The position numbers were made by a program, and so were the translations under genes. Shown piece after piece: positions 1-16,796 of a stretch of 64,000 nt of DNA. Under the pieces are notes generated by a model. It did no database searches. It was given only the letters and a program-made list of their open reading frames with translations, and was not told where the DNA came from. Position 1 is the first letter of the stretch; every line of letters starts with the position of its first letter. This stretch comes from Denitromonas halophila (GTDB taxonomy: Bacteria > Pseudomonadota > Gammaproteobacteria > Burkholderiales > Rhodocyclaceae), in NCBI RefSeq assembly GCF_007625155.1, contig NZ_VMNK01000002.1, positions 181,518-245,517 on the forward strand, in the 5' to 3' direction.

Positions 1-2
1 TG

Positions 3-317
3 GCCGCCGATGGGGCGGAGGTCAAAGAGCTGCGCGTCGATGGCGGCATGACCCGCAATAACCTGCTCATGCAGTTGCAGGCCGACTTGCTCGGCGTGCC
101 GGTGCTGCGCCCGCAGCAGACCGAAACCACGGCCCTGGGCGCGGCCTTTCTGGCCGGCCGGGCGGTCGGTGTGTGGCCGGACGACGCGGCTCTTGCCGCG
201 CACTGGCAGCTTGACCGGGCGTTTGAGCCGAATGCCTCGGCTGACTGGCGCGAGGCCTTGATCGCGCGTTGGCACAAGGCTATCGAGCGCAACCGGGGCT
301 GGGCCGATGGCGCCTGA
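3..317 (+). CDS. glpK: glycerol kinase, C-terminal part (5' end outside window)
   Basis: The reading frame is open from base 3 and gives about 104 residues ending at TGA 315-317. The sequence DGGMTRNN near the start and [13 protein letters not shown] soon after are typical of the second FGGY-family domain of glycerol kinase, which phosphorylates glycerol to sn-glycerol-3-phosphate in the cytoplasm with ATP. The gene directly overlaps glpD, the next enzyme of the pathway, by 11 bases, which supports the assignment. The N-terminal domain and promoter are outside the window. Another FGGY sugar kinase is possible in principle, but the glpD neighbour makes glpK by far the best call. Confidence 0.9.
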
Positions 318-1830
318 CGACATCAAGCTGGCGCCGCCCGCGCTGGCGCGACCGGCCTTGCTGGCGGCGGCGCAGGCCGTCGCGCAGTGGGACGTTATCA
401 TCATCGGCGGCGGCGCCACCGGCCTGGGCGCGGCGGTGGATGCCGCCAGCCGGGGCTATCGCACGCTGCTGCTGGAGGCGTACGACTTTGCCAAGGGCAC
501 CAGCTCGCGCTCGACCAAGCTGATCCACGGCGGGGTGCGCTACCTTGGCCAGGGCCGGATCGCGCTGGTGCGCGAGGCGCTGGTCGAGCGCGCGCGTTTG
601 CTCAAGAATGCGCCGGCGCAGGTCACGCCGCTGCGCTTCGTGGTGCCGGTCTACCGCCGCTGGGACCAGTTCAAGCTGCGCGTCGGTCTCACCGCCTACG
701 AATGGTTGGCCGGGCGCTACAGCCTGGGGCGGGTGCGCGGTTTGTCGGTGGCCCAGACCCGCGCGGCGCTGCCCAACGCCCGGCCCGAGGGGCTGCTCGG
801 CGGGGTGGAATATTTCGATGGACAGTTTGACGATGCCGGCCTGGCCATCGCCCTGGCGCAGACCGTGTTCGACCACGGCGGCACGGCGCTCAACTATGCG
901 CCGGTGACCGACCTGATCGAGACGGATGGGCGCATCACCGGCGTGCGCGGGCACGATGAAATCACCGGTCAGGCTTTGGAATTCATGGGCCGTGTGGTGA
1001 TCAACGCCACCGGCGTGTGGGCCGACGACATCCGCCGCATGGCCATTCCCGATGCGCCGCCCATGCTCGCACCCAGCCAGGGCGTGCATGTGGTGGTCGA
1101 TGCCGACTGGTTGCCCGGCGACACCGCGCTGCTGGTGCCCGAGACCGACGATGGCCGGGTGCTGTTCATGATCCCGTGGCAGGGCAAGGTCTTGCTCGGC
1201 ACCACCGACACCCCGCGTGACGACATTCCGCTCGAACCGCAGGCGCAGGCCGCGGAGATCGACTTTATCCTCCGCACCGCCGCGCGCTATCTGCTACGCG
1301 CGCCCGGCCGTGCGGATATCAAGAGCGTGTTCGCCGGCCTGCGCCCGCTCATCGCCGCCGACCCCGACGCGCCGCGCAGCGAGCTGTCGCGCGAGCATGT
1401 GATCCGTGTCTCGCCGCAGGGGCTGATCACCATCGCAGGCGGCAAGTGGACGACGTATCGGCAGATGGCCGAAGAGGTGATCGACCGTGCGGCGCGTGAG
1501 GCCGGTTTGAGCGCACGCGTCTGCCGCACTGCCGATCTGCCGCTGCACGTCGACCTTGTGCTCGCGGCTGGCGAACGCCTGCATCCGCGTCTGGCGTTGA
1601 CCGAAGCGCAGGTGCGCCACGCGGCGAGCGCGCAGTTTGCGCTGGCCGTCGAGGACGTGCTCGCCCGGCGCAGCCGCGCACTCTTTCTCGATGCCGACGC
1701 CGCATGCGCCGTCGCCCCCGAGGTGGCGCGCATCCTGGCCGATGAACTCGGCCGCGATGCCGACTGGCTGGGCGCGCAGATCTCGGATTTCACGGTGCTG
1801 GCTGCTGCGTATCACGCTGCGCCGGATTGA
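307..1830 (+). CDS. glpD: aerobic glycerol-3-phosphate dehydrogenase (FAD)
   Basis: The 507-residue protein oxidises glycerol-3-phosphate to dihydroxyacetone phosphate at the inner membrane and passes electrons to quinone. The FAD-binding Rossmann motif [13 protein letters not shown] lies around residues 30-42, followed by the [17 protein letters not shown] stretch characteristic of the GlpD/GlpA family; [16 protein letters not shown] around residue 290 is also typical. The ATG at 307 lies inside the end of glpK, so the two genes are translationally coupled. Length matches the roughly 500 residues usual for GlpD. No obvious damage. It probably follows glpK in a glp operon whose promoter and regulator are upstream of the window. 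Confidence 0.95.
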
Positions 1831-1910
1831 TGTCGAAATGCTGAGCCGGCGCCATTCGCCGGCATTCTTGCGCGACATCAAGAATTTCGAAATTTAAGTC
1901 GCCACCCTCT

Positions 1911-1937
1911 TAAGAGACGGGCTGTCCGGAACGATAA
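1911..1937 (+). promoter_or_regulatory. candidate sigma-28 (FliA) promoter of the PAS/chemoreceptor pair
   Basis: TAAGAGAC at 1911-1918 and AACGATAA at 1930-1937 are separated by exactly 11 bases. The known flagellar sigma-28 consensus is TAAAGTTT, 11 bases, GCCGATAA; the downstream half matches at CGATAA and the upstream half only at TAA. It sits about 108 bases before the ATG at 2045, ahead of two chemotaxis genes, which is where such a promoter is expected. The match is partial, so this is a candidate only. Confidence 0.45.
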
Positions 1938-2044
1938 TCCCCCTGCAACCGGGGATTCGATGCGTGCCTGCGCGGATCCGCATTCGTGTTCGACGGGCGG
2001 TGTCGCTCGCCGTCATGCCGAGCCAGGCAAAACAGGATCGTCAT

Positions 2045-2581
2045 ATGAAATCAGGCATCGTCCCGACGCAGCAGGAGGTTCGCTTCGAAAACCACGAGCT
2101 GATCGTTTCCAAGACCGACACCGCCGGTCGCCTCACCTATGCCAATCGCGTCTTCATGCGCGTGGCCAACTTCCCCGAAGGTGCGTTGCTGGGCAAACAG
2201 CACAACGTGATCCGGCATCCCGACATGCCGCGCGGCGCCTTCCGCCTGCTGTGGGACACGCTGGCGGAGGGGCGCGAGTGGTTTGGTTTCGTCAAGAACA
2301 TGACCGCCGACGGTGGCTATTACTGGGTGTTCGCCAATGTGACGCCGGATCGCATGCAGGGTCGCGTCATCGGCTACTACTCGGTGCGTCGTCAGGCACC
2401 GAAGGGCGCGGTTGCGGAGATTGAGCCGATCTACCGGCAGATGTGCACGATCGAGGCCCAGGCGGGCAAGAAGAACGCGCCTGATGCGTCGATCGACTGG
2501 CTCGGTGCCCAGCTGGCCGAGCGCGGTGTGAGCTACGAGCAGTTCGTGCTCGATTGCTACAAGCGCCATCTGGCAGCATGA
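2045..2581 (+). CDS. stand-alone PAS-domain protein, Aer/CetB-like redox or oxygen sensor
   Basis: The 178-residue soluble protein has one PAS domain over residues 15-115 with [29 protein letters not shown] and [20 protein letters not shown]. These closely resemble the FAD-binding PAS domain of the aerotaxis receptor Aer (the NxxIRHPDMP helix and GxYYW strand). There is no transmembrane segment or signalling domain of its own. ATG 2045 was chosen over in-frame starts from 1964 because the PAS core begins soon after it and AGGA lies about 9 bases upstream. The stop overlaps the next gene, a methyl-accepting chemotaxis protein, so the two probably form a split receptor as in Campylobacter CetB/CetA. 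FAD binding is inferred. Confidence 0.85.
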
Positions 2582-2592
2582 GGATGACCCAC

Positions 2593-4101
2593 ATGAACCA
2601 CCAGCAGATTTTCGCCCGGACCAGCGGCCTGAGCCGTGGCAGTTTGTTCGCCTCGCAGCGCTTCGTGCTGATGTGCGCATTGTTCGTGGGCTCGGTTTGG
2701 GCGCTGGCCGTCTACGATGGGTGGCGCGACGGCCCGAGCCTCTTCAACACCATGCTGCCGCTGGGCGCCCTGGCCTATGCCACCTATGCCCTTCGCCACC
2801 ACCGCCGCACGCTCGATGCGGTGGCGCGGCTCAACAGCGCCATCGTCGCGGCGCGCAAGGGCGACACCCACCACCGCATCACCCATGTCAAGGGGCTGGG
2901 CGAGATCGGGCATGTGGCCTGGAACTTCAACGACCTGATGGATGTGGTCGAAACCTATTTCAAGGACGTCTCCAATTGCTTCGAGCGCGCCGCGCGGCGC
3001 GACTTCACCCGACCGGCGCTGTCGATGGGCATGCCGGGTGATTTCGGCAAGTCGGAAGACGAGATCAACCTGGCGCTCGACGCCATGCAGAAGGCCGACA
3101 CCTTCTCGCAGCGCAACCGCCTGTCGGCCGGCCTGCACGAGATGAACACCGGATCGCTGTTCGCCAATCTCAAGGTCAATCAACAGGATCTGACCGAGGT
3201 GACCGATGTGATGACCAACGTGCTGTCCATCGCCGAACGCAACCGCGCTGGCGCGCGCACCAGCCGCGATACCGTCGAGGTGCTGCGCCAGACCATGGAC
3301 TCGGTCAACGCGCGGATGCAGCGCTTGGGCGAGGCGGCCGGCGAGCTGGGCACCTCGAGCCAGGAGATCCACAAGACGGTGCGGATCATCGCCGAGATCA
3401 CCGAGCAGACCAACCTGCTGGCGCTCAATGCGGCCATCGAGGCGGCGCGTGCCGGCGAGGTGGGGCGGGGCTTCGCCGTGGTGGCCGACGAGGTGCGCAA
3501 GCTGGCCGAACGCACCCGGCAGGCCACGCAGGAGATCGGCGGCGTGGTGGATGGGCTGGGCGCCTGCGTCGACGAGATGGTCGGCCAGACCGGCGAGATG
3601 ACCGGGCAGACCGCCGAGGTGACCGAGCGCGTCAGCGACTTTGCCAATGAATTCGCCGGTGTGGCCCACTCGGCCGAGGAGACCATCACCTGGCTGAGCG
3701 CCGCGCGCGAGCAGATCTTCGGCACGCTGGTCAAGCTCGATCATGTCATCTTCATGCAAAACGGCTATGTGGCGGTCGAGCGCGGCGGCGACAACGATGA
3801 AGCGCGCATCGTCGCGGTGGGGCCGACCGAGTGCCGTCTCGGGCATTGGTATTACGAAGGCTCAGGGCGCGAAATGTTCGCGCATCTGCCGGCCTATCGC
3901 AGTCTCGAGCAGCCGCACAAGACCGTGCACCGCAGCGTGCAGCGCGCGATTGAGGCGTCGCGCGAAGACTGGCTGCGCGACGAGGTGGCTTTCGACCGCA
4001 TCCTGGACGAAATGCGCGCCGCTGAGCATGCCAGCCGCGACGTGATCCGCCTGATCGGCGAGATGGTGGCCCAGAAGCAAGTGGCCGCAACGCGTCAATA
4101 G
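2593..4101 (+). CDS. methyl-accepting chemotaxis protein with C-terminal CZB zinc-binding domain
   Basis: The predicted 502-residue receptor has two close membrane segments (about residues 25-43 and 53-68) with almost no periplasmic loop, a HAMP-like linker, and the MCP signalling hairpin with its tip near residue 275-290 ([20 protein letters not shown]). After it comes a CZB domain with [25 protein letters not shown] and HKTVH, whose His and Cys residues are the known zinc ligands of the family. Because a sensory ectodomain is missing, the signal probably comes from the upstream PAS protein or from the CZB domain itself. ATG 2593 has GAGGA 8-9 bases upstream; ATG 2578, which overlaps the preceding stop, and ATG 2584 are alternatives. 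Confidence 0.9.
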
Positions 4102-4117
4102 GCAGCCGCCGATCCCG

Positions 4118-4146
4118 GGATGCGTGGCCGCGAATGCCACGCATCC
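4118..4146 (+). terminator. hairpin after the chemoreceptor gene
   Basis: GGATGCGTGGC (4118-4128) can pair fully with GCCACGCATCC (4136-4146) around a 7-base loop, 17 bases after the stop codon. There is no following T-run, so it may be a 3' stabilising hairpin or a weak or Rho-assisted terminator. Confidence 0.4.
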
Positions 4147-4281
4147 GGCGCTTCTGGACAAGCGGCCAACGTCTGCCTAGGCTGAATCCTGATCCCTTGC
4201 ATGCCATCGATTGCCGGGCCATTGTTAGCCTCCGGCGCCTTGTGCTCCGCGCCGAGCGGCGTGCGCTCTGGAGGTGCGATC

Positions 4282-6018
4282 ATGGATGCCGAATACGATC
4301 TGTTGATTCGTGATGGGTGGGTGGTCAACGGCCGCGGCGGCGAGCCCGTCCAGGCCGACGTGGCGGTGAGCGGCGGGCGCATCCGCGCCGTTGGTAAGCT
4401 CACCGGTGCGGCGCGCGAGGTCATCGACGCCACCGACCATATCGTGGTGCCGGGCTTCGTCGACATCCACACCCACTACGACGGTCAGGTGAGCTGGGAG
4501 AACCGGCTGGTGCCCTCGTCCTCGCATGGTGTGACCACGGCGGTGATGGGCAACTGTGGCGTCGGCTTCGCGCCGTGCCGGCCCGAGCAGCACGAGCTGC
4601 TGATCCAGCTGATGGAAGGGGTCGAAGACATCCCGCATCCGGTGCTGGTCGACGGTCTGCCCTGGGCCTGGGAGAGCTATCCCGACTACCTCGATTTCCT
4701 CGCCGCGCGGCAGTACGACATGGACATCTGCGGTTACGTGCCGCATGCCCCGGTGCGGGTGTACGCCATGGGCCAGCGCGGCGCCGACCGCGAGCCGGCC
4801 ACGGCGGACGACCTGGCGGCGATGGCGCGCCTCGTGGCCGAGGCGGTGCGCGCCGGGGCGATGGGCTTTTCCACCTCGCGCACCTTCTTCCACCGCTCCA
4901 GCGACGGGCGCTCCACGCCCAGCTTCGAGGCCGCCGAGGCCGAACTGATGGCGCTCGGCGGCGCGCTGCGCCAGGAAGGGCGTGGCGCGATGCAGCTGAT
5001 CACCGATTTCGATGCGCCGGAGGCGACGCTCGATTTGCTGCTACGCCTGGTCAAAGCCGCCGGCCGGCCCTTGTCGGTGTCGTTGCTCGAAGGCACCTAC
5101 GGGCCGATGACCCTCGACTGGCGCACGGTGCTCGACCGCTTCGCGGCGGCCGGCGCCCAGGGCCTGCCGATCAAGGCCCAGGTGCTGAGCCGGGCCATCG
5201 GCGTGATGCTCGGCCACGAGCTGACGCTCAACACCTTCTACACCTGCGACTCCTACAAACCGCTTGCTGCGCTGCCCTTCGAGGAACGCATCCGTGCGCT
5301 GCGCCAGCCCGAGATGCGCGCGCGCCTCCTCGCCGAAGCGGCCGATCCCGATCCAACCATCGTGCTCGGGCGGCTGGCGCGCGAGTTCGACCACATGTTC
5401 CTGCTCGGCGACCCGCCCGACTACGAGCAACCGTTCGAGAACAGCATCGCCGCGCGCGCTGCGCGGCTCGGCGTGAGCCCCGAGGCGCTGGTCTACGACC
5501 TGATGCTCGAGCGCGACGGGCGCAACAACCTGTATGTGACCCTGTGCAACTACGAGCACGGCTCGCTCGAATCCTCGCGCGAGATGATGCAGCACCCCGG
5601 CGCCGTGCTCGGCCTCGGCGACGGTGGCGCGCACTGCGGCACCATTTGTGATGGCAGTTACCCCACCTTCATGCTGACGCACTGGGTGCGCGACCGGCAG
5701 CGCGGCGCGCGGCTGCCCTTGCAGGACGTGATCAAGTGGCTCAGCCACGACACCGCGCAGGCGGTCGGTCTGTGCGATCGGGGCGTGCTTGCCCCCGGCT
5801 ACAAGGCCGACATCAACGTCATCCACCCGGAGCGCCTGACCCTGCACGCGCCTGAAGTCGCCCACGACCTGCCCGGCGGCGGGCGGCGCCTGGTACAGCG
5901 CGCCGACGGCTATGCCGCCACTGTGGTTAGCGGCGCCGTGGTGTATCGCGACGGGCAGCCCACCGGTGCGCTGCCGGGCCGGCTGGTGCGCGGCGCGCAG
6001 GCGGCACCAGTGCACTGA
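4282..6018 (+). CDS. amidohydrolase of the N-acyl-D-amino-acid deacylase (D-aminoacylase) family
   Basis: The 578-residue cytoplasmic enzyme belongs to the amidohydrolase superfamily, subgroup of D-aminoacylases. [10 protein letters not shown] around residues 61-70 carries the HxH metal pair, GNCGVGFAP around residue 91 contains the Cys that ligates zinc in D-aminoacylase, and [11 protein letters not shown] near residue 448 holds the catalytic Asp region. Start 4282 has GGAGG 8 bases upstream; the longer in-frame start at 4201 is not supported. The substrate cannot be read from sequence: relatives hydrolyse N-acyl-D-amino acids, but many close homologues are uncharacterised. It appears to be a single-gene transcription unit. 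Confidence 0.85.
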
Positions 6019-6588
6019 TGCCGTTCGGCCGGTTTGCCGAAACGGGCTAGCGGCCTGCGCGGCGGCGTTTCTATAGTTGGTGCATGGAAAATGTTGTGTT
6101 CCGCGCCGGCGCTCAAGCCCGGCCATCCGGAAGCGTCGCCCGTCATCCTGAGCGGCAATTGCATCAACTGGGGGCGGTGTATTGATGTGTGCGACGAGGA
6201 TGTGTTTGCGTTCGGTCTGCGCGGCTCGCGTCGGATGCCCTCAGAACCAGCAGCAGGGCAGGTCGTGGGGATTCACAGGCTGTCGGCTACCGAGCGGGTC
6301 GGCGTCCGACAGAAAAGCTGAGTCGGCATGGCGCCCGCCAACGGGACCCTCCTGCACGGATCGCTGCGCTTGTCGCTCGACAAGTCGGTCACCTTGATTC
6401 GCTTGGTGTTTCGGTGCAGCTCCTGGCTGGTCTCGGCCAACTGCTGCCGCTCGCCAATTCGGCAGAGCTGTCACTCCAGCGGCCGCTCCGCTCGGGAACC
6501 TGCCCGAGGCACTACGGAAGCGACTCGGCCTTTGCCGACAGTTGATACTCAGGGTACGAACGGCCGCTGATAATTTGACTGCTGCCGG
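6019..6588. other. 570-base stretch without intact gene, left border of accessory island
   Basis: No convincing complete gene is seen on either strand. The left part holds the decayed iron-sulfur motif described separately (6142-6216). From about 6300 to 6580 the sequence has short open frames with poor codon usage and reads like decayed intergenic DNA. The end of the large minus-strand STAND gene follows at 6589. No terminator with a T-run was found for either flanking gene. Confidence 0.5.
6142..6216 (+). pseudogene. remnant of a NapH-type 4Fe-4S ferredoxin motif
   Basis: One frame reads SGNCINWGRCIDVCDEDVF at 6151-6207. This is the CxxCxxCxxxC ferredoxin motif with the second Cys replaced by Trp (TGG 6169-6171, one base from TGC). 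The form CINCGRCIDVC followed by acidic residues resembles the C-terminal iron-sulfur part of NapH-type quinol dehydrogenases and related membrane ferredoxins. No membrane domain precedes it and the frame soon loses sense on both sides, so this looks like a gene end left after deletion. The family label is a tentative recollection. Confidence 0.4.
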
Positions 6589-9500
6589 TTACACCCCGTC
6601 GCTATCGAGACTAGCCTCTTCGGAGGCGGCAAGTTCAATCAGAGAAATTCGTGCCGCCAGAACTTCTAGCGTCAAGTCGTTCAGCGAGCCACCCACGGTG
6701 CCTTCCATCAGCTCGGCCGCCAAAGTATGGCTGTCAGCGCCGCTGAATTCAGCGTCAACGCGTTCAAACAATTGAGCCAACTGGCTCGCGGCTTGAGCGA
6801 GCACTTCGTTAGGTTCATCGTTTAGCTGCGCACTGAAAGTTTGGAAACCGAGGCTAGCCCGCTCGGCTACTAAGTCGAAGTACCCTCGCTCACTAGCGTT
6901 AAGTTCGCGGCCGCAATGAGCGACTACTGTCGACATCGTTACGATTGCGTCGAGCGTCCTATCGAAATTTCTAAGCCCGTCGTCGTCGATTGGAGGATAC
7001 GGAAGACTGGCGGCCCATTCGTCCGCGAAATCGGGGTATGGATGCAGCGATTGGAGGAAGGACATGCCCATGGGGGCGATACGATCTCCTAGTACTGCTC
7101 CGTATGCAATTCTGTGAAAGCCTTCCAGGCTAGTTGCAGCCGATGCAAAAGAATCGCCAGTCGCCATCCAATCTACGAGCGTTTCTACCCTGAGTAGAAC
7201 GGCAAACTCGACACAAGGCCACTCGTATCCACCGTCTTCTGGCAAGCGCCGCGAAAACACCTCAACATCTAATCCAATCGCGCCCATCGCTTGTCGAATG
7301 GTATTTCGGCGAATTTCTACAGCGTTTTCCGCCCTGCGGCATGCTTCTTCCGCAGCACGGTGCAAGATCGCGTGGTGTCGGCTAGTCGATCTAAATCGTG
7401 CGGCTAGGCGGCGACGACGCGTCGAATCGGCCACCACATCTCCAAGCACCGCGCGCAAATTTCTGAGAACCGCGCGAGTTCGGGTTATCGCCTCGATGGG
7501 AGGCTCGCTGGTCATACGCCACAGTTCAGGGAGAAGCAGCGAATCCGCGTCATTGATGAGGCCTGCAGTTCGTACTACAAGAAGATCAGGCCTCTTCACG
7601 TCATCTTCTGTCAGGTCAGCTATTAGCTGCTGCAATCCCATGACGAAGTCGTACGGTTTGTCGGAGTTTTTGAGTTTGCCCTTGTCAAGAGGCCCCGAGA
7701 CAACTTCGTCCGCAGTCGGTGGTTGAACGAAGTCAGTAAGCAGGCCACGCACCTTGAGGGATAGTTTCCATTTCGGTCCCGGAGCCTCCATGCGGCAGAA
7801 ATAGTCGCCCGCCTCACGAAGGCGACTTTCGAGCTCCACAATTGCGTTTGCGAGAGAGGTAGTTCGTCCCGTTTCTACAGGGGCTGCTACAAGGCGTTGA
7901 ATTGCGCGGATTTGCGCTCGGTTCCACGCAACGCGTGCGGGGGCGGGCAGCGCCGAGCGGCTAAGGTGTTTCGAATGGAGCGCTTCTCCACCGAGCCCGA
8001 AAGAGCTCCCATCCGCCGTGAGAACATCAGAGACGAGAAGCTCGGCCTCTGGCACAACGGCCGCCATTGCCTCGCAAAGGCGTACAACCTCGTCGTTGAG
8101 GTCAGGCTGAATTTCCGGGTGGATGAAGCGGACGTAGCTGCTGACGCAGCACAAGCCATCTTTCGATGCGAGGGCGGGGCGCGTAACCCAGTCCATCTCC
8201 TGGAACATGCGTTCGAGAAGCGCCTCCGTCCCCCCTAGCAATTCCACCAGTTTTCGGGCCGCCTCCACTCCCGTTTCCCGCACAGTTGTCAAGAAGGTAA
8301 TCAGCTCTTTAATAGGCGCTTCGGCCAAATCATCCGGCTTTGGTAGAGGGCGAATCGTCGGCCGTGACTTGCAACCTGCTATCGGCAAGAGAGCGGCTGC
8401 CAACTCATTCGCTCCGTCTAGATCTAACTCAGGCTTTTGGACGCTATCTGCCATTCGGTCGATGAGTGACTTCCGAAGATCAGTCACGTCCACATCGGCA
8501 AATTCTCTCCGAGCCTTTGACACGACCTCAAACCCTTTGATGCCAGTAAATTCTCGGTTGCCAAGGGCAAGCATGAACATGAAACTGCTCAAACGATCGT
8601 CAATGCCTGCTGCGCGTGAGATCTCAAGCCACTTGTCAGCAACTCGATCTGCTGTGGCAAGGCCCAGCCCGTGAAAGATGGAAGTCCAGCACGCAGTTTC
8701 ATGTGGCTTCAAACGTAAAGCTAGGCCTTCAATAAGTGCATTCTCTTCAGTGGGCCACTTCTGCAATACCCGCACGATAAAGCCTGCAAAAGCATCTGGC
8801 ACTAGCGCCTCGACTGCGGCTAAAAGTGCTGTTCGTCTTGGCTCCATCAGGAATTCCTGGATGGCCTCATCAAGATACGTGGAACGGATTTCGTGCAGCC
8901 CCGTGAGGGCTCCGTCGGGTCTTAATCGCACCGCATGTTCATCTACCAATCGCTGAAGTGCTTTAGCGAACCTCGTCTCGTCGAGGCGGCTCTGAAACCG
9001 GAGAAGAATCGGATCCACGGCCGCAGCCTGGGCGGACGCAAACGAAACCGTTCGAAGGAGTATCAACTCGTCACCCCGGTTCTCGACAAGACGCCTACGA
9101 ACCTGCTCTCGAATAGTCTCTTCGAGACGTTTTCCTGCTGAGAGCAGATGTGTGAACTCGAGAAGGAGACCGTGACTGAGCTCAAATGGCTCTCGCCAGT
9201 GGCTGAATGCTACTGAGCCTGACTCTTGCAAGGCCGACCAGATACGAAAAGCAAGTTCTTCATCCAGAGCAGGTCGAACCGTAGGCGTACGGGTGGCAGT
9301 TGCGAGAAGGAATATGTCTTCTTCTCGAACTGTACCGATGGCGAGGATGCTGTCTTCGGCCTCGATTTCTCGCACGAGAGCATCCCACCCGGCAGTCTCT
9401 TGCCGCCCGACGTCGTCGATCACGAATCCGACTGGCCGCTGCGGCCTTGCTTCCAGTAGCCGTGCCAGTTGTAGCAGCCGCGCGACGCCCGAGGGCGGAA

Positions 9501-10479
9501 GCTCACGGACGCGATACCACCTTACGGCATGACGGGTACGATGCGCCGCCAGCCACGCAAGCCCAGATTTGCCAGCGCCAGACGGTCCGGCAACCAAGGT
9601 GAACCGCTTGGCTTCAAGTCCGGCAAGTACGTCAGTCATTAGATTTGGCCGATTGAATACTAAGCCCGCTCCTACGTGCCCGGGCACGACATTGACGCCT
9701 CGGTAGAAACCTTCGGTCGGCACTGCCGCGCCAAAATCTGCCAATTCAGCAAGGCCGGCCGTCAGTTCGACATATCCAAGTGGGTCGATGACGCTTGTAA
9801 CCCTGTCGATACGCATCTGCACATCGGTTTGGTCCAGCGTTACAGGGGCTGTAGCCGACGCAGTGTAGTTCGCGTCTGCAATACTCCCGGCTTGCTCTCG
9901 AAGTTGTTGGAATGCCAACCTTGCAGCTGCAGGTGGCAATCGCGAAGTACGCAGGGCTGAGCAACCACGCTCGATCGGCTCGGCTTCGACAATCAAGTGC
10001 GCGCGCGCCAGAAACGCTTCCGTCGAAACAGTGCTGTTCTCACCAATCAACACCGAAAGATAGTGCGTAAGCTCATTCAACGACTGTCCACTATCTGAAA
10101 GAGAAGTGGACCAGCCGGTAGGTAGCAGTCCCTCGACGGGTCTCTCCAGAACTAGAGCAAGTTTAAACCGCGAGTCTTCATCCCAGCCGTAGGGCAGGTT
10201 CTCCGCGCTCTTTGCTAAGTATTTGGCTGCTTCAGCTTGGGTAAAGGTACCTTGAGGATCATGCCTGGATTTAATTTGAACCCGGAGTTCGAAATCTGCA
10301 CCGTGCAATGTAACGTCATCTAAGCCCTCCGGAACAACGACTTTCCAGCTGGCTTCCCCGTTCCAAGTCAGCGTGGCAAGCCACGCCGTGACCGCATCTT
10401 GGTATCGAAATCCGCGGCCCGCACGTGCGCCAGCTCTGGTTCGTTTCCATAGCTCTGGGTCGATCAATACCATTTGCAT
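6589..10479 (-). CDS. Avs-like defence protein: Cap4/DUF4297-like nuclease domain + STAND P-loop NTPase + long helical C-terminus
   Basis: The 1296-residue protein begins with GRGFRYQDAVTAWLA, then PEGLDDVTL and VQIKSRH around residues 48-70. This E...D...QxK pattern is that of the Cap4 (DUF4297) double-strand DNA endonuclease of the PD-(D/E)xK fold. A P-loop NTPase follows: Walker A GPSGAGKS near residue 297, Walker B VGFVIDDVG near 350, a sensor-like GTVREED near 380, and a winged-helix-like stretch LTGLHEIRS near 525. About 750 mostly helical residues of unknown family follow, as in STAND antiviral (Avs) sensors. ATG 10479 with GGGAA upstream was preferred to ATG 10554. Base composition is visibly AT-richer than in neighbours, consistent with transfer. 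Function in phage defence is inferred; no target can be named. Confidence 0.75.
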   Translation of the reverse strand: MQMVLIDPELWKRTRAGARAGRGFRYQDAVTAWLATLTWNGEASWKVVVPEGLDDVTLHGADFELRVQIKSRHDPQGTFTQAEAAKYLAKSAENLPYGWDEDSRFKLALVLERPVEGLLPTGWSTSLSDSGQSLNELTHYLSVLIGENSTVSTEAFLARAHLIVEAEPIERGCSALRTSRLPPAAARLAFQQLREQAGSIADANYTASATAPVTLDQTDVQMRIDRVTSVIDPLGYVELTAGLAELADFGAAVPTEGFYRGVNVVPGHVGAGLVFNRPNLMTDVLAGLEAKRFTLVAGPSGAGKSGLAWLAAHRTRHAVRWYRVRELPPSGVARLLQLARLLEARPQRPVGFVIDDVGRQETAGWDALVREIEAEDSILAIGTVREEDIFLLATATRTPTVRPALDEELAFRIWSALQESGSVAFSHWREPFELSHGLLLEFTHLLSAGKRLEETIREQVRRRLVENRGDELILLRTVSFASAQAAAVDPILLRFQSRLDETRFAKALQRLVDEHAVRLRPDGALTGLHEIRSTYLDEAIQEFLMEPRRTALLAAVEALVPDAFAGFIVRVLQKWPTEENALIEGLALRLKPHETACWTSIFHGLGLATADRVADKWLEISRAAGIDDRLSSFMFMLALGNREFTGIKGFEVVSKARREFADVDVTDLRKSLIDRMADSVQKPELDLDGANELAAALLPIAGCKSRPTIRPLPKPDDLAEAPIKELITFLTTVRETGVEAARKLVELLGGTEALLERMFQEMDWVTRPALASKDGLCCVSSYVRFIHPEIQPDLNDEVVRLCEAMAAVVPEAELLVSDVLTADGSSFGLGGEALHSKHLSRSALPAPARVAWNRAQIRAIQRLVAAPVETGRTTSLANAIVELESRLREAGDYFCRMEAPGPKWKLSLKVRGLLTDFVQPPTADEVVSGPLDKGKLKNSDKPYDFVMGLQQLIADLTEDDVKRPDLLVVRTAGLINDADSLLLPELWRMTSEPPIEAITRTRAVLRNLRAVLGDVVADSTRRRRLAARFRSTSRHHAILHRAAEEACRRAENAVEIRRNTIRQAMGAIGLDVEVFSRRLPEDGGYEWPCVEFAVLLRVETLVDWMATGDSFASAATSLEGFHRIAYGAVLGDRIAPMGMSFLQSLHPYPDFADEWAASLPYPPIDDDGLRNFDRTLDAIVTMSTVVAHCGRELNASERGYFDLVAERASLGFQTFSAQLNDEPNEVLAQAASQLAQLFERVDAEFSGADSHTLAAELMEGTVGGSLNDLTLEVLAARISLIELAASEEASLDSDGV

Positions 10480-10905
10480 CGAGCATTCCCGCTTACTATC
10501 GGCTGGTGTCGTTACGGCTCGAATGCCCACGAATCGCGCTAGCGTAAAAACCACTAATCATACAGAGCAATCGCCCAGAGGAGCAAAGCTCCCATGAGAA
10601 ACGGATAACAGTCAATAGCTAGTATGCAACACGCTTTCGCCAGATTCGGTGCGGAAATTGAACGGCCGGCGTGGCCGAACTCGCGACGCTGGGCTCCGAT
10701 CTGCGTCCGATGACCGCTTTTCGGATGACTCATACCGGAACAATCGGCGACGAGTAGCCAAGGCGGAGAGTCACAGCGGCGGCACATCATCCGGCCGCTA
10801 ATGCACATTGTAATCATGCTATCTGGGCCCTCAAGAGCTACTGTGCCATGATGTACGCATCTGAACAGGTCAGAATGTGCGTCACAACCAAACTACGGAG
10901 GCGAT
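10480..10905. other. divergent intergenic region between the two defence modules
   Basis: These 426 bases separate the minus-strand STAND gene from the plus-strand nucleotidyltransferase gene and should hold both promoters. No clear sigma-70 pair, operator palindrome or small gene could be identified. The middle (about 10620-10800) contains short decayed-looking open frames only. Confidence 0.5.
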
Positions 10906-11658
10906 GTGTCGGCAGAGGAATACCTGCGCGGTCTGCTTCGGAAGTACGCCGTCAATACAAAGGGGGCTGAGGCGGCCGGGAACAAAATCTATCCAGTGCT
11001 CGAAAAGTGGAGTAATGGTTTCCTGAACAAGGCCGAATTCTCAGGTTCGCTTGCGAAGGGCACCGGCATCTCGCTCTCAACTGATGCCGACATTTTCTTG
11101 TCGTTAAGTTCGACAACTCCGGGCACTCTCTCGGATATGTATGAGACGCTCAGCAAGGCTGTGTCGATCGCTGGTTATCCGGTTCGGAAGCAAGACGTCT
11201 CAGTGGGAACGACTGTCGATGGCTACTCGATTGACCTAGTGCCAGGTCGGCGTCAGTCTCAGTACGGCAACGAACACAGCCTTTACCGAAACCGAACTGG
11301 TAGTTGGACGAAGACAGACGTCCAGACGCACATCACACTCGTTTCCGGAAGCGGGCGAACTGAAGAGATTCGGATACTCAAGATTTGGCGAACTCTTCGC
11401 AACCTGCGCTTCCCTTCGTTTTACCTTGAGCTCGCGGTCCTAGCCGCGTTGCGCTACGCGCGCCAAGGCGACATCGCCGCAAACGTTTGGCGGACGCTTC
11501 AGTATCTTCACGACAACATCAAGACCGCCCGATTCATCGACCCTGCGAACACGAACAACGTAGTATCAGACGATTGCTCGGCATCGGAAAAGGCGGCGAT
11601 TTGTTTGCAAGCCGGCGCCTCTATCGGGAAAAAGACGTGGGACGAGATTGTCTGGTGA
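10906..11658 (+). CDS. CD-NTase/OAS-like nucleotidyltransferase
   Basis: The 250-residue protein has the polymerase-beta-type nucleotidyltransferase core: G47-S48 in FSGSLAKGTGIS, the metal-binding pair D60-A-D62, and the third acidic residue D110 in YSIDLVP. The C-terminal half has the helical partner domain, with ILKIWRTLRNLRFPSFYLEL and IDPANTNNVVSDD, the latter like the OAS1_C signature. All catalytic residues are present, so the enzyme should be active; CD-NTases make cyclic oligonucleotide alarms in CBASS, but a protein- or tRNA-modifying role is also possible. The GTG start at 10906 has GGAGG 4 bases upstream, and no in-frame ATG is near. It is followed after one base by the DUF6602 gene, its probable partner. 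Confidence 0.8.
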   Translation: MSAEEYLRGLLRKYAVNTKGAEAAGNKIYPVLEKWSNGFLNKAEFSGSLAKGTGISLSTDADIFLSLSSTTPGTLSDMYETLSKAVSIAGYPVRKQDVSVGTTVDGYSIDLVPGRRQSQYGNEHSLYRNRTGSWTKTDVQTHITLVSGSGRTEEIRILKIWRTLRNLRFPSFYLELAVLAALRYARQGDIAANVWRTLQYLHDNIKTARFIDPANTNNVVSDDCSASEKAAICLQAGASIGKKTWDEIVW

Positions 11659-11659
11659 C

Positions 11660-12418
11660 ATGAACAAAGCCAAGAAAGCATCAGCCATTGATGGCAAGCA
11701 TTTCCTTCGTGAAGCCTTCGCCGCAGAGCAAGAAGTCCTTCGCCTAAAATTGGAACTGTCGAGCAAGTCAATTACTCACAACGGTGTGATGGGTGAGGTG
11801 AACGAACATCATTTCATCGAAGTTCTGCGGAAGTACCTGCCGAATCGATACGCCGTTGCTCAAGGCATTGTTGTTGACTCAAACGGCGCAACAAGCGATC
11901 AGATTGACATCATCATCTTTGATCCGCAGTACACCCCGACGCTCCTAGATCAGCAGTCACACAGGTTTGTCCCCGCCGAGGCCGTCTACGGGGTTCTTGA
12001 AGCCAAGCCGACAATTAGCAAACAGTATCTGGAATATGCGGCCGACAAAGCTGCATCTGTTCGTCGACTGGAACGAACAAGCGTTCCAATCAGACATGCG
12101 GGCGGCGAATTTCCGCCGAAGACCCTGTTTCCAATTCTTGCTGGAATAGTCGCCCCCTGCGTCGACTGGGCAGATGGATGCAAGAGTTCGAGCTTCGCTG
12201 AAGTGATTGGCAGTCTTACGGACGAGCGAAGCCTAGATTGCGGCATTGCGCTCTCCGATCGTGCGTTTCAAGTCTCCAACGGGTCGATCGCTCTGAGCGA
12301 TTGCCACGGATCTCTCGCCGTCTTCCTCTTCGGACTATTGGATCGCTTGCAGAACCTCGGTACCGTGCCGGCAGTTGACTGGAACAGGTACGGCTCCGTG
12401 TTCAGCGGTGACCTTTGA
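11660..12418 (+). CDS. DUF6602-type protein with PD-(D/E)xK nuclease-like motif
   Basis: The 252-residue protein has an N-terminal charged helix (residues 15-45), then GVMGEVNEHHFIEVLRKYLP, and the core SDQIDIIIFD with D83 followed by E114-A-K116 in YGVLEAKP. This D...ExK spacing is that of restriction-endonuclease-fold nucleases, and the overall pattern fits the family I know as DUF6602. ATG 11660 lies one base after the stop of the nucleotidyltransferase gene; a TTG at 11648 is in frame but less likely. The tight coupling suggests an enzyme/effector pair. Nuclease activity is inferred from three residues only. Composition is AT-richer than the host genes around it. Confidence 0.7.
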   Translation: MNKAKKASAIDGKHFLREAFAAEQEVLRLKLELSSKSITHNGVMGEVNEHHFIEVLRKYLPNRYAVAQGIVVDSNGATSDQIDIIIFDPQYTPTLLDQQSHRFVPAEAVYGVLEAKPTISKQYLEYAADKAASVRRLERTSVPIRHAGGEFPPKTLFPILAGIVAPCVDWADGCKSSSFAEVIGSLTDERSLDCGIALSDRAFQVSNGSIALSDCHGSLAVFLFGLLDRLQNLGTVPAVDWNRYGSVFSGDL

Positions 12419-12865
12419 CTTGGACGTTGAGCATCAGCAACGGGGCGCACGTTCGCAGTCACCAGATCGGAAGCCGTCGTTCGCAGACATTCAAATTTGA
12501 CGGGCAGGTAACCATCTCATTGCGGCCCGATCGGTCGTGATACCCAGCCGACCGCTTTGGCCGAGGTCTTGCCAGTAAGGGGGCATGTGGAACGGCAGCT
12601 GTACTTCGTCACTTGCCGTTCGGAAGCCTGCCGGCTGACGGGCAGCTCCGGGTCGTTCACTGCCCCTGCGCAATGGCGCACTAAACGTCTGGCATGGCTG
12701 ATGACGCTTTTCGTTGGCCACGACGGAATCAATTCATCGATTTGGTGTTCGTCTGTGGCTCTTCGATACCCGCTCGCACCGCCCGCAAAAGGCGGGCGTG
12801 GGGGCGGTACAAATCGGGTGGGTATGCGAGTACGGTAGTCGAGGTGCCAACCCGGAGCGCTTTCG
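12419..12865. other. 447-base stretch without gene, right border of accessory island
   Basis: No gene is seen on either strand. Around 12783-12797 CCCGC-AAAA-GGCGGG forms a small hairpin without a T-run. The rest consists of short open frames with no recognisable protein, and lies between the DUF6602 gene and a decayed thioesterase gene. Confidence 0.5.
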
Positions 12866-13300
12866 ATGAACAAGGATGCTCACTTCAGTACGCTTTAGCG
12901 CATGTATCTGGCTGCGCCGATCAATGCCTTTTACGGCCCCGATATCGCGGTGAGCGAGGGCGCGGCGCGGGTTGGGATGACGGTGTTGCCGACGATGTTC
13001 CATGGCGCTGGGGCGGCGCATGGTTCGGTGGTGTTTAAAATGCTGGACGATGCGGCGTTTTTTCCGCCGCTTTGCTTGAGCGGACGTCTTTCGTGGTGAC
13101 CACGACATTCACGACCTACCTCACCCGGCCGGTGTCGTCGGGGCGCATTGTGTCGGTGGGGCGTGTGGTCAATCGCAATCGTACGCAGTTCATTGCCGAA
13201 GCCGTGTACCGATGCGCGCGGGCGGGAGATCGGTCGCGGCAGTGGTGTTTTTGCGCGCAGTGCGGCCTTGCTGACCGATACGGTGGGCTACGCGAGTTGA
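12866..13300 (+). pseudogene. PaaI-family hotdog thioesterase, inactivated by a stop and two frameshifts
   Basis: Reading from ATG 12866 (CGGAG 8 bases upstream) gives MNKDAHFSTL then TAG at 12896-12898, then RMYLAAPINAFYGP, GAGAAHGSVVFKMLDDAAFF. This is a PaaI-type thioesterase with its hotdog helix. At the six-T run 13058-13063 the frame shifts by one base, as if one T were lost, and continues as LLERTSFVVTTTF, TRPVSSGRIVSVGRVVNR and RTQFIAEA. Near 13208 one extra base returns it to a frame reading GRGSGVFARSAAL up to TGA 13298-13300. Every part is recognisable, so inactivation is recent. Programmed recoding at three sites is very unlikely. Confidence 0.85.
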
Positions 13301-13303
13301 GCG

Positions 13304-13330
13304 GCGCCGGGGCCTTGGTGGCCCCGGCGC
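13304..13330 (-). terminator. GC-rich hairpin between thioesterase remnant and pyc
   Basis: GCGCCGGGGCC (13304-13314) pairs perfectly with GGCCCCGGCGC (13320-13330) around a 5-base loop, 7 bases beyond the pyc stop. It lacks a T-run, so termination may be incomplete or Rho-assisted; it could serve both converging units. Confidence 0.5.
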
Positions 13331-13337
13331 GTGCGTG

Positions 13338-16300
13338 TCAGGCCTTGAATTCGATCAGTAGATCCTTGGCGTTGACCTGGGTGCCGGGCTTCACGTGCAC
13401 GGCGGCGATGGTGCCATCGCGTTCGGCCTTGATGGCCAGTTCCATTTTCATGGCTTCGAGTGTCATCAGGGTGTCGCCACGATTCACATGCTGGCCGTCG
13501 CGGGCGCCGACGCTGCCGATCACGCCGGGCATGGGCGCACCGATCTGGTCGGGGTTGCCGTCCTGCGCCTTGGGCTTGTCGCTGGTGTTGACCACGCCGG
13601 CACGCGGGACCTTGATCAGGCGCGGCTGGCCGTTGAGTTCGAAGAACAGCTTCATCTGACCGTCTTCTGACTCGGCGCGGCCGAGCAGGCGGATGACCAG
13701 GGTTTTGCCGCGATCGATGTCGACCACCACTTCTTCACCGTCGGCCAGACCGTAGAAGAAGGCCGGGGTGGGCAGCACGGAGACGTCGCCGTATTTGGCT
13801 TCGTGTGCGACATAGTCGGCGAAGACCTTGGGGTACATCAGCGACGAGGCCAGCTCGGTGTCGGTGGCGTCGCGCTCCAGCGTCTTGCTCAGTTCGGCGC
13901 GCGTGGCGTCGAGATCGACAGCCGGCAGGTGGTCGCCGGCGCGGCCGACCATGGGTTTTTCGCCGCCCAGTACCTTGGCTTGCAGCGCTTCGGGGAAGCC
14001 GTCGGCCGGGTAGCCGAGTTCGCCGCGCATCAGTTGCACGACGGATTCAGGGAAGGCGATTTCGCGCGCCGGGTCCATCACGTCGGCGGGGGTCAGTCCG
14101 TTGGTGACCATGAACAGCGCCATGTCGCCCACCACCTTGGAGGTCGGCGTGACCTTGACGATGTCGCCGAACAGCAGGTTGACCTGGGCGTAGGCCTGGG
14201 CGACTTCCGGCCAGTGATGGTCGATGCCGACCGCACGGGCCTGCTCGCGCAGGTTGGTGTATTGGCCGCCGGGCATTTCGTGCAGATAGACATCGGAGGT
14301 GCCCGAGCGGATGTCGGCTTCAAACGGCGCGTACTGGCGGCGCACGCCTTCCCAGTAGCGCGAGAGCTTTTGCAGGTTGGCGAGGTCCACGCCCGGGTCG
14401 CGGTCGTGGCCTTGCAGCGCGGCGACGATGGAGCCGAGGTTGGGCTGGGCGGTGAGGCCGGACAGCGCATCGAGTGCGCCGTCGACCGCATCCACACCGG
14501 CCTCGACGGCGGCCAGCACGCTGGCCGCGGCGATGCCGCTGGTGTCATGGGTGTGGAAGTGGATGGGCAGGCCGACTTCGTCGCGCAGCGCCTTGACCAG
14601 CGCGCTGGCGGCACGCGGGCGGCACACGCCGGCCATGTCCTTGATGGCGAGGATCTGCGCGCCGGCCTTTTCCAGGTCCTTGGCCATCTTTACGTAGTAC
14701 TGCAGGTTGTACTTGGGGCGCGCGGTGTCGAACAGGTCGCCGGTGTAGCAGATGGCCGCCTCGCACAGCGCGCCGGTGTCGCGCACCGCGTCGATGGCCA
14801 CGCGCATGTTGTCCACCCAGTTGAGCGAGTCGAACACGCGGAAGAGGTCGATGCCGCCTTCGCCATCGCGGCCGGCGGCGGCCTGTTTGACGAACTGGCG
14901 CACCACGTTGTCGGGGTAGTTGGTGTAGCCCACGGCGTTGGAGGCGCGCAACAGCATTTGCAGCAGCAGGTTAGGCATGGCTTCGCGCAGCTCGGCCAGG
15001 CGGGTCCACGGGTCTTCCTTGAGGAAGCGCAGCGCTACGTCGAAGGTCGCGCCGCCCCAGCATTCCATGGAGAACAGCTCGGACCCGAGGCGGGCGTAGT
15101 GCGGTGCCACGGCGACCATGTCGCGGGTGCGCATGCGAGTGGCAAACAGCGACTGGTGGGCGTCGCGCATGCTGGTGTCGGTCAGCAGCACTTGCGGAGT
15201 GTCGCGCATCCATTGGGCGAAGGCGTCGGCGCCCAGGGCTTTGAGGCGGTCGCGCGAACCGGCCGGGGGCGGCTCGGTGAGGTCGACCTTGGGCAGGATC
15301 GGCGCGGCCAGCGGGCCAACCGGCGCGGTGCGGCCTTTCATCTCGGGGCTGCCGTTGACGGTCACTTCGCCGATGAAGCTGAGGAGGCGGGTAGCGCGGT
15401 CGCGACGCGGGGTGAATTCGAACAGCGCGGGCGTGTCGTCGATAAAGCGGGTGATGCATTCGCCCGACAGAAACTGCGGATGGGCGATGACGTTTTCGAG
15501 GAAGGCGAGGTTGGTGGTGACCCCGCGGATGCGGAACTCGCGCAGCGCGCGATCCATGCGGCTGGCGGCCTCAACCGCGGTGTTGCCCCAAGCGGTGACC
15601 TTGACCAGCAGCGAGTCGTAATAGGGGGTGATGACCGCACCGGCGTAGGCCGTGCCGCCGTCCAGACGCACGCCCATGCCCGAGGCGCTGCGGTAGGCGG
15701 TGAGCTTGCCGTAGTCGGGCGCGAAGCCGTTTTCCGGGTCTTCGGTGGTGACGCGGCATTGCAGGGCGTGGCCGTTGAGACGGATCTTGTCTTGCGTGGG
15801 GATGCTGCTGTCTTCGTCGCCGATGCGCACGCCTTCGGTGACGCGGATCTGTGCCTTGACGATGTCGACGCCGGTGACCTGCTCGGTGACCGTGTGCTCG
15901 ACCTGAATACGCGGGTTCACTTCGATGAAGTAATAGGCGCCGGTGTCGGCGTCCATGAGGAACTCGACCGTGCCGGCGTGGCTGTAGCCGACTTCGCGGG
16001 CCAGGCGCAGTGCGGCGGCGCACAGATCGGTACGGGTTTTTTCGTCGAGGTAGGGCGCCGGGGCGCGCTCGACCACCTTCTGGTTGCGGCGCTGTACCGA
16101 GCAGTCGCGCTCGAACAGGTGGATGAGGTTGCCATGGGTGTCGCCCAGTACCTGCACTTCCACATGGCGGGCGCGGCGCACCAGTTTTTCGAGATACACC
16201 TCGTCGTTGCCAAAGGCGCTGCCGGCCTCGCGGCGGGCCACTTCCATGGCCGGGCCGAGATCGGCTTCGGTTTCGACCACGCGCATGCCGCGGCCACCGC

Positions 16301-16796
16301 CACCCCAGCTGGCCTTGAGCATCATCGGGTAGCCGACTTTGGCTGCGGCTGCCTTGGCACCGGCCAGGTCATAGGGCAGGGCATCGGTGGCGGGCACCAC
16401 CGGCACGCCGGCGCTTTCGGCCAGGTGCCGCGCGGTGACCTTGTTGCCGAGCCGGCGCATGGCGTCTGGGCTGGGGCCGATGAAGCGGATGCCGGCCTTG
16501 GCGCAGGCTTCGGCAAAGTCCGGGTTCTCGGAGAGCAGGCCGTAACCGGGGTGAATCGCATCCACATGCGCCTCTTTGGCCACCCGGATGATGTCGTCGA
16601 TATCGAGGTAGGCCGCGATCGGGCCTTTGCCTTCGCCCACCAGATAGGCTTCGTCGGCCTTGAAGCGATGCAGTGAGAGGCGGTCTTCCTTGGAGTAGAT
16701 CGCCACGGTGCGGATGTTCATCTCGCTGGCAGCGCGGAACACGCGGATGGCGATTTCGGATCGGTTGGCGACGAGGATGCTCTTGATCGGATTCAT
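13338..16796 (-). CDS. pyc: pyruvate carboxylase, single-chain
   Basis: The 1152-residue biotin enzyme carboxylates pyruvate to oxaloacetate with ATP and bicarbonate, refilling the TCA cycle. Residues 1-450 are the biotin carboxylase part (ILVANRSEIAIRVFRAA; ATP-grasp loop KASWGGGGRGMRVVE; FIEVNPRIQVEHTVTE). Residues about 530-1000 are the carboxyltransferase domain (LLTDTSMRDAHQSLFATRMR and KDMAGVC). The C-terminal biotin carrier domain has LEAMKME with biotinyl Lys 1117. Full length for the family. It is the only gene of its unit; a hairpin follows at 13304-13330. With aceA in the same window it suggests growth on both C2 and C3 compounds. Confidence 0.97.
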   Translation of the reverse strand: MNPIKSILVANRSEIAIRVFRAASEMNIRTVAIYSKEDRLSLHRFKADEAYLVGEGKGPIAAYLDIDDIIRVAKEAHVDAIHPGYGLLSENPDFAEACAKAGIRFIGPSPDAMRRLGNKVTARHLAESAGVPVVPATDALPYDLAGAKAAAAKVGYPMMLKASWGGGGRGMRVVETEADLGPAMEVARREAGSAFGNDEVYLEKLVRRARHVEVQVLGDTHGNLIHLFERDCSVQRRNQKVVERAPAPYLDEKTRTDLCAAALRLAREVGYSHAGTVEFLMDADTGAYYFIEVNPRIQVEHTVTEQVTGVDIVKAQIRVTEGVRIGDEDSSIPTQDKIRLNGHALQCRVTTEDPENGFAPDYGKLTAYRSASGMGVRLDGGTAYAGAVITPYYDSLLVKVTAWGNTAVEAASRMDRALREFRIRGVTTNLAFLENVIAHPQFLSGECITRFIDDTPALFEFTPRRDRATRLLSFIGEVTVNGSPEMKGRTAPVGPLAAPILPKVDLTEPPPAGSRDRLKALGADAFAQWMRDTPQVLLTDTSMRDAHQSLFATRMRTRDMVAVAPHYARLGSELFSMECWGGATFDVALRFLKEDPWTRLAELREAMPNLLLQMLLRASNAVGYTNYPDNVVRQFVKQAAAGRDGEGGIDLFRVFDSLNWVDNMRVAIDAVRDTGALCEAAICYTGDLFDTARPKYNLQYYVKMAKDLEKAGAQILAIKDMAGVCRPRAASALVKALRDEVGLPIHFHTHDTSGIAAASVLAAVEAGVDAVDGALDALSGLTAQPNLGSIVAALQGHDRDPGVDLANLQKLSRYWEGVRRQYAPFEADIRSGTSDVYLHEMPGGQYTNLREQARAVGIDHHWPEVAQAYAQVNLLFGDIVKVTPTSKVVGDMALFMVTNGLTPADVMDPAREIAFPESVVQLMRGELGYPADGFPEALQAKVLGGEKPMVGRAGDHLPAVDLDATRAELSKTLERDATDTELASSLMYPKVFADYVAHEAKYGDVSVLPTPAFFYGLADGEEVVVDIDRGKTLVIRLLGRAESEDGQMKLFFELNGQPRLIKVPRAGVVNTSDKPKAQDGNPDQIGAPMPGVIGSVGARDGQHVNRGDTLMTLEAMKMELAIKAERDGTIAAVHVKPGTQVNAKDLLIEFKA

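Follow-up and report, generated by a model that had tools for sequence, protein, structure and literature searches.

The window, by which we mean the whole stretch of 64,000 nucleotides from Denitromonas halophila that was analysed, carries two closely spaced genes on the forward strand. The first gene (10906..11658) begins with a GTG codon downstream of a GGAGG and encodes a predicted CD-NTase, i.e. a CBASS cyclase, of 250 amino acids. The second gene (11660..12418) starts with ATG and encodes a predicted NucC endonuclease effector of 252 amino acids. According to the ORFs of the window a single base separates the stop codon of the cyclase from the ATG of NucC. Both genes are open from end to end and their invariant catalytic residues are intact.

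In an initial annotation the pair had been described as a CD-NTase-like gene with a DUF6602 partner. These labels are fair, since gene 2 matches Pfam DUF6602 with 109 bits (cut-off 27) and gene 1 gives a sub-threshold match to SMODS (22.3 bits, cut-off 26.5). The active-site residues named there were recovered at the claimed places, namely G47-S48, D60, D62 and D110 in gene 1 and D83 and E114-A-K116 in gene 2. Since the former are identical in all 30 aligned short cyclases (window included) and D83, E114 and K116 in all 38 aligned NucC sequences, they do not occur there by chance. The cyclase alignment comprises the window and loci L004–L030, L034 and L067. The NucC alignment comprises the window, L002, L031–L035, L066, L067, L068, L070, L071, two PDB chains and 24 of the 25 NucC genes that follow a cyclase (all except L029, which has internal stops). 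Duplicates of a place already included and matches of up to about 200 residues were left out.

Identity of the two proteins

Comparison of gene 2 with solved structures (phmmer) returned five matches, four of which are named NucC. The closest solved relative is NucC of Serratia (7zgv, 277 bits, residues 2–244 of the window protein); E. coli MS115-1 NucC (6p7o with 169 bits over residues 16–246, 6p7p with 167 bits) and Vibrio metoecus NucC (6uxf, 134 bits) were also recovered. The fifth match, 6q1h “Bacterial protein ORF C62” (155 bits), appears by eye to be closely related to the E. coli chain. In PADLOC the gene matched PDLC00745 “Endonuclease (NucC)” with 293 bits and PDLC01051 “NucC nuclease” with 235 bits. 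Judged by this homology, which extends over the whole protein, the “DUF6602” partner is NucC. A new effector class was rejected on the strength of the PADLOC and structure matches.

The D-(E)-x-K nuclease core of E. coli NucC, which we take to be D73/E104/K106, is conserved: positions 73, 104 and 106 of the E. coli protein (plasmid copy) align with D83, E114 and K116 of the window. The pocket of E. coli NucC for cAAA (cyclic tri-AMP) is presumably formed by R53, Y81 and T226, and its counterparts in the window are R63, Y91 and T235. They agree in 37, 35 and 35 of the 38 NucC sequences, respectively; the Arg is absent in one sequence, Phe replaces Tyr in three and the Thr is absent in another three cases. 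Passages in PMC10419184 and PMC10002423 describe NucC as an effector of CBASS and type III CRISPR whose trimer itself provides the binding pocket for cAAA, and passages in PMC8682760 and PMC10419184 name cAAA as its activator. The earlier proposal that the effector senses a nucleotide in a new way is at odds with this known binding mode, which solved structures also display. A Pfam scan agreed with the remark that the partner contains no SAVED, CARF or membrane family.

A DUF6602 match alone was rejected as proof of NucC, as most genomes with such a match show only a partial one. DUF6602 matches were present in 17 of 398 genomes of a phylum sample and 12 of 369 of a class sample, with a full-length NucC match in only 6 and 2 of these; in the others the cover was partial and mostly limited to the core around residues 30–140. 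Together with the 2 full-length matches in 101 near relatives (own genome counted in all three samples) this makes NucC a rare protein among the relatives. Where window-type NucC proteins are named at all they are annotated as DUF6602 or hypothetical, whereas more distant relatives are named NucC. The term DUF6602 did not occur in the literature searched.

The window cyclase is assigned to the PADLOC cyclase family PDLC00803 (280 bits), a short CdnC/CdnD-like family, and combines a Pol-beta-like fold with the GS motif and the three catalytic Asp residues D60/D62/D110. When its model was compared with known structures P. aeruginosa CdnD was the best match, followed by CdnB and CdnC. The XGSX motif reads S46-G-S-L, and the lid residues are T137 (lid 1) and H142 (lid 2); the CdnC from E. 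coli in L033 shows the same set. According to PMC13424991 SGSL with a lid Thr and a lid His is the residue set of cAAA makers, and given these shared specificity residues cAAA is the predicted product of the window cyclase. The rule is carried over from known cyclases: we infer the messenger rather than read it off, since E. coli CdnC is 71 residues longer and shares 21% identity with the window cyclase in the structure alignment. Ser46 is conserved in 26, Thr137 in 28 and His142 in 26 of the 30 short cyclases, four of which have Gln at lid 2 and four no Ser at the first XGSX position. Among the 120 database matches listed of 742 (window’s own included), 117 carry the S/T/H set; lid-2 Gln occurs in P0076 and P0119, and P0096 differs at the first position.

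A different combination was observed in L024 (3216–4645), the Holosporales locus L028 (1948–3389) and L029 (4559–6092), where the cyclase has both a lid-2 Gln and an Ala in the XGSX motif. In the NucC of L024 and L028 Phe replaces the pocket Tyr. A joint messenger switch is a possible explanation of these residue changes.

Pairing of the two genes and their genomic setting

We scanned genome contigs with a search seeded by the cyclase alignment and obtained 27 loci. In 25 of these NucC is the next gene downstream of the cyclase, i.e. the two genes are co-conserved in other genomes that were found by the cyclase alone. All but one of the 25 NucC genes lack stops in the matched stretch. Damaged copies are L029 (about 190 bases between the genes, and stops within NucC), L007 (cyclase with a stop) and L005 (NucC match ending at residue 210). 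In the ten loci L004–L013, in which the NucC match starts from residue 1, cyclase and NucC are one to four bases apart or share four bases. Distances between cyclases agree with those between the NucC proteins (Mantel r 0.92, none of 5000 permutations as high; 27 pairs from the window, 24 genome loci, L034 and L067). The hosts of the pair belong to the Pseudomonadota, Bacillota, Acidobacteriota, Elusimicrobiota, Fidelibacterota and Candidatus Altimarinota. No third conserved gene was seen when the 235 ORFs around the 27 loci were clustered: 28 cyclases and 24 NucC were followed by clusters of 4, 3, 2 and 2 members, judged by size and family counts to be mainly type I restriction-modification subunits.

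The two loci without NucC behind the cyclase are L023 and L030. In L023 (4432–6479) from WOR-3 the cyclase (231 bits) overlaps by 4 bases with an ORF of 180 amino acids that gives a weak Vsr-endonuclease match, possibly a different effector in the place of NucC. In L030 (1645–9266), from a Saprospiraceae MAG, a PDLC00803 cyclase (195 bits, lid-2 Gln) is located beside a radical SAM gene. The surroundings resemble a type III-A CRISPR locus with three RAMP genes, one containing a Csm4 domain, and a Card1-type CARF nuclease; a NucC match was not found in this locus.

In the congener locus L087 the matches to window positions 1–1802 and 13338–16796 are only 145 bp apart, whereas 11.5 kb lie between them in the window. 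The module is thus located in an accessory stretch (1803–13337). At the same junction other DNA is present in L086 (about 1.7 kb) and L088 (about 8.5 kb). Within the accessory stretch, and divergent from the cyclase, a gene on the reverse strand (6589–10554) encodes a protein of 1321 amino acids with a Cap4-nuclease-like N-terminus (21.5 bits) and a STAND-type NTPase, both sub-threshold Pfam matches. By these matches it is likely another defence gene.

We also scanned the flanks of the related loci, covering 123 of 124 ORFs of at least 120 amino acids (at most three a side; one ORF at the contig end of L012 left out). Restriction-modification leads the flanking families among the best 25 of 190 in PADLOC and the best 25 of 144 in Pfam, with type I methyltransferase in 5 and type I restriction enzyme in 3 members of the listed PADLOC families, and N6_Mtase in 4 and HSDR_N in 3 of the listed Pfam families. 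The three RAMP members among the flanking ORFs all derive from L030. Since these are raw counts without a background rate, the signal for a defence-gene neighbourhood is weak. Among 50,697 phage records two gave matches, both partial. Viral contigs contained three cyclase relatives. One of them, L090 (5944–8473), is a two-gene cyclase-NucC pair with a NucC 52% identical to that of E. coli and an integrase-like ORF, recognised by eye, at its end. The other two are of the CdnC-HORMA-TRIP13 type: L091 includes NucC, and L092 comprises the first part and ends before NucC. Both layouts can therefore ride on mobile elements.

HORMA, TRIP13 and Cas10 genes and the phylogeny of NucC

HORMA genes were searched for with two models. 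Between them they found HORMA in the controls, all six NucC systems being hit (bacHORMA_2 in L032; bacHORMA_1 in L033, L035, G311, G568 and G443), and neither model had a match in any of the 26 two-gene genomes, i.e. the window’s own genome and those of 25 loci including the three damaged copies. Since bacHORMA_2 found one control and bacHORMA_1 the other five, the search would overlook any third type of HORMA that diverges from these two. Single absences among the 25 other genomes, whose completeness is unstated and many of which are MAGs, could be due to gaps. The flanks of L004–L030 contained no match at E 1e-3 to the HORMA and TRIP13 queries from E. coli, Thauera and Polaromonas; the E. 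coli and Thauera queries recovered their counterparts in L066, L068, L070 and L091. In the window’s own genome a Cap7 query, used without a positive control, found no match, and the E. coli TRIP13 (Cap6) query gave one match of 21 bits (E 2e-4) to a frame of 793 amino acids on another contig. One Cap2-/Cap3-like pair from Desulfosarcina had no match at E 1e-3 in the flanks of L004–L030 and none, as the sole query, in the 1.5 kb around the window pair (L001). With the one Cmr2/Cas10 model tried no Cas10 above the cut-off of 79 bits was detected in the own genome; the best match (19 bits) is an open frame of 858 amino acids on another contig.

In the midpoint-rooted NucC tree of the 38 sequences the window belongs to a supported set of six two-gene members (98/96) within a clade of 14 (100/97). 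This clade also holds the Serratia NucC 7zgv, which we take to be associated with type III CRISPR, as well as L071, which lies at a contig end and shows no cyclase within 9 kb, and L031, in which NucC is located beside a Cap2/Cap3-type CBASS on the strand opposite to its cyclase. Further outward branch L032, whose locus contains an AAA ATPase besides two HORMA-like ORFs, and L066, which has the CdnC-HORMA-TRIP13 layout. Ten other sequences form another clade (100/99), which contains four E. coli-type CBASS members, L002, the Vibrio CRISPR NucC and four two-gene members, three of them alphaproteobacterial and the fourth L067. The flank of L002 is short; its cyclase and a single HORMA placed this locus with L032. 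The two-gene label changes six times on the tree, and at least four of these changes are forced by well-supported branches. Related NucC proteins are thus shared by CBASS loci of types I, II and III and by type III CRISPR.

Locus L031 (3490–8762) is situated on a plasmid of Desulfosarcina ovata. Its Mov34, ThiF and nucleotidyltransferase genes share one strand, and a WYL regulator and NucC, 59% identical to that of the window, are on the other. The cyclase carries QGSY and a lid-2 Gln, which would predict cAAG and not cAAA.

Assignment to a CBASS type and alternative readings

Passages in PMC9122588 and PMC10419184 define type I CBASS as consisting of a cyclase and an effector only. Since the window has exactly two such genes next to each other, one base apart and with the same order in 25 of 27 relatives, and neither a HORMA nor a TRIP13 match at the locus, it is by this definition, as far as tested, a two-gene CBASS of type I whose effector is NucC. 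The combination of a cyclase with HORMA (Cap7/Cap8) and TRIP13 (Cap6) genes that marks type III CBASS was not found. The E. coli-type CdnC-Cap7(HORMA)-Cap6(TRIP13)-NucC systems used for comparison (L033, L035, L066, L068 and L070) share the effector family (NucC 37–49% identical to that of the window), and their CD-NTases agree with that of the window in fold and in the residues predicted to specify cAAA. However, their cyclases comprise 320–321 residues instead of 250, and the window has no HORMA or TRIP13 gene between or beside its adjacent cyclase and NucC. A passage of PMC10002423 links type I to membrane holes, whereas the effector here is NucC. In PMC9122588 NucC is listed as an effector for CapW-linked systems, which range from type I to type III, without the type being specified, and no description of a type I locus with NucC was found in the literature passages searched. 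PADLOC already has entries for the two genes, named “Cyclase” and “Effector: Endonuclease (NucC)”, and its models suggest that type I NucC systems have been counted before. Both proteins belong to known families and the only surprise is that the usual HORMA helper is missing. The initial annotation was therefore right to see a signal maker paired with a nuclease, as the CD-NTase triad, the nuclease-family core and the co-conservation agree with it; an undescribed defence system, as it proposed, is not what PADLOC and the identity of the partner indicate. Its further idea that the enzyme modifies RNA or the partner itself found no support in this analysis.

We consider it most probable (about 0.86) that the pair acts as a type I CBASS in which the CD-NTase would make cAAA upon infection, switch on the NucC DNase and thereby kill the infected cell. 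Because no HORMA regulator is present, we propose that a phage cue would activate the cyclase directly. The enzyme would join ATP into 3’,3’,3’-cAAA, which would occupy the three-fold pocket of the NucC trimer (R63, Y91, T235). Two trimers would then form a hexamer, whose D83/E114/K116 sites would cut double-stranded DNA without sequence specificity, and the cell would die before phage release (abortive infection). Directly supported are the family of both proteins, the conserved catalytic and specificity residues, the tight pairing across distant bacteria and the lack of a HORMA match.

An improbable variant, yet the most credible of the alternatives, is that the same two-gene CBASS uses another messenger, e.g. 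cAAG or a mixed-linkage ring, to which the NucC pocket is adapted. The lid-2 Gln and XGSX Ala of L024, L028 and L029 point in this direction, and as the pocket Phe accompanies them in L024 and L028, messenger switches may exist in the family. However, the NucC of L032 also has Phe while lid 2 of its cyclase is His, so that lid and pocket changes are not tightly linked. The window itself shows the SGSL/T/H set of cAAA makers (PMC13424991) and has kept R63, Y91 and T235. A decaying or selfish, addiction-like module without an anti-phage role is very unlikely: the pair does lie within the 11.5-kb stretch missing at the same junction in the congener, and relatives have broken copies (L007, L029 and the shortened L005 match), but both window genes are full-length and catalytically intact and open pairs occur across several phyla.

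Even less likely is that NucC is driven in trans by Cas10 or another cyclase and the neighbouring CD-NTase is incidental. The closest solved relative, Serratia 7zgv, presumably a CRISPR-associated protein, would fit such an arrangement. In passages of PMC8682760 the cA3 for the Vibrio metoecus NucC (6uxf) is supplied by the Cas10 of type III CRISPR. In contrast, the window NucC has an adjacent CD-NTase, a pairing that recurs in 25 of 27 loci, and a Cas10 accompanying nucC was not found with the one model tried, whose sole match stayed far below the cut-off. Panoptes consists of two genes, and a Panoptes-like, inverse logic, with a cyclase that is always on and a product that holds the effector off until phage depletes it, could be imagined here. 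Systems with inhibitory or decoy signals have been published (PMC12657218 and PMC12657230). The inverse logic is the most far-fetched of the readings, as cA3 turns the Vibrio metoecus NucC on and not off (passages of PMC8682760).

Returning to type I CBASS, a more far-reaching version is tentative and falls somewhat short of even odds. The 250-residue cyclase would be a self-contained infection sensor that makes cAAA for NucC without HORMA/TRIP13, and its trigger would be new since the HORMA/TRIP13 checkpoint on which CdnC, the studied cyclase of NucC-linked CBASS, depends is missing. The unit would have exchanged NucC with type II and III CBASS and type III CRISPR, and in one branch of the Holosporales cyclase and NucC may have shifted messenger together.

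The identification of NucC closes an annotation gap. One effector family across three CBASS layouts and type III CRISPR would fit cAAA as a shared currency. Since HORMA/TRIP13 accompany this effector and its predicted messenger in some systems and are missing in others, the pair would offer a natural system of minimal size in which to study how a cyclase of CBASS can detect infection on its own.
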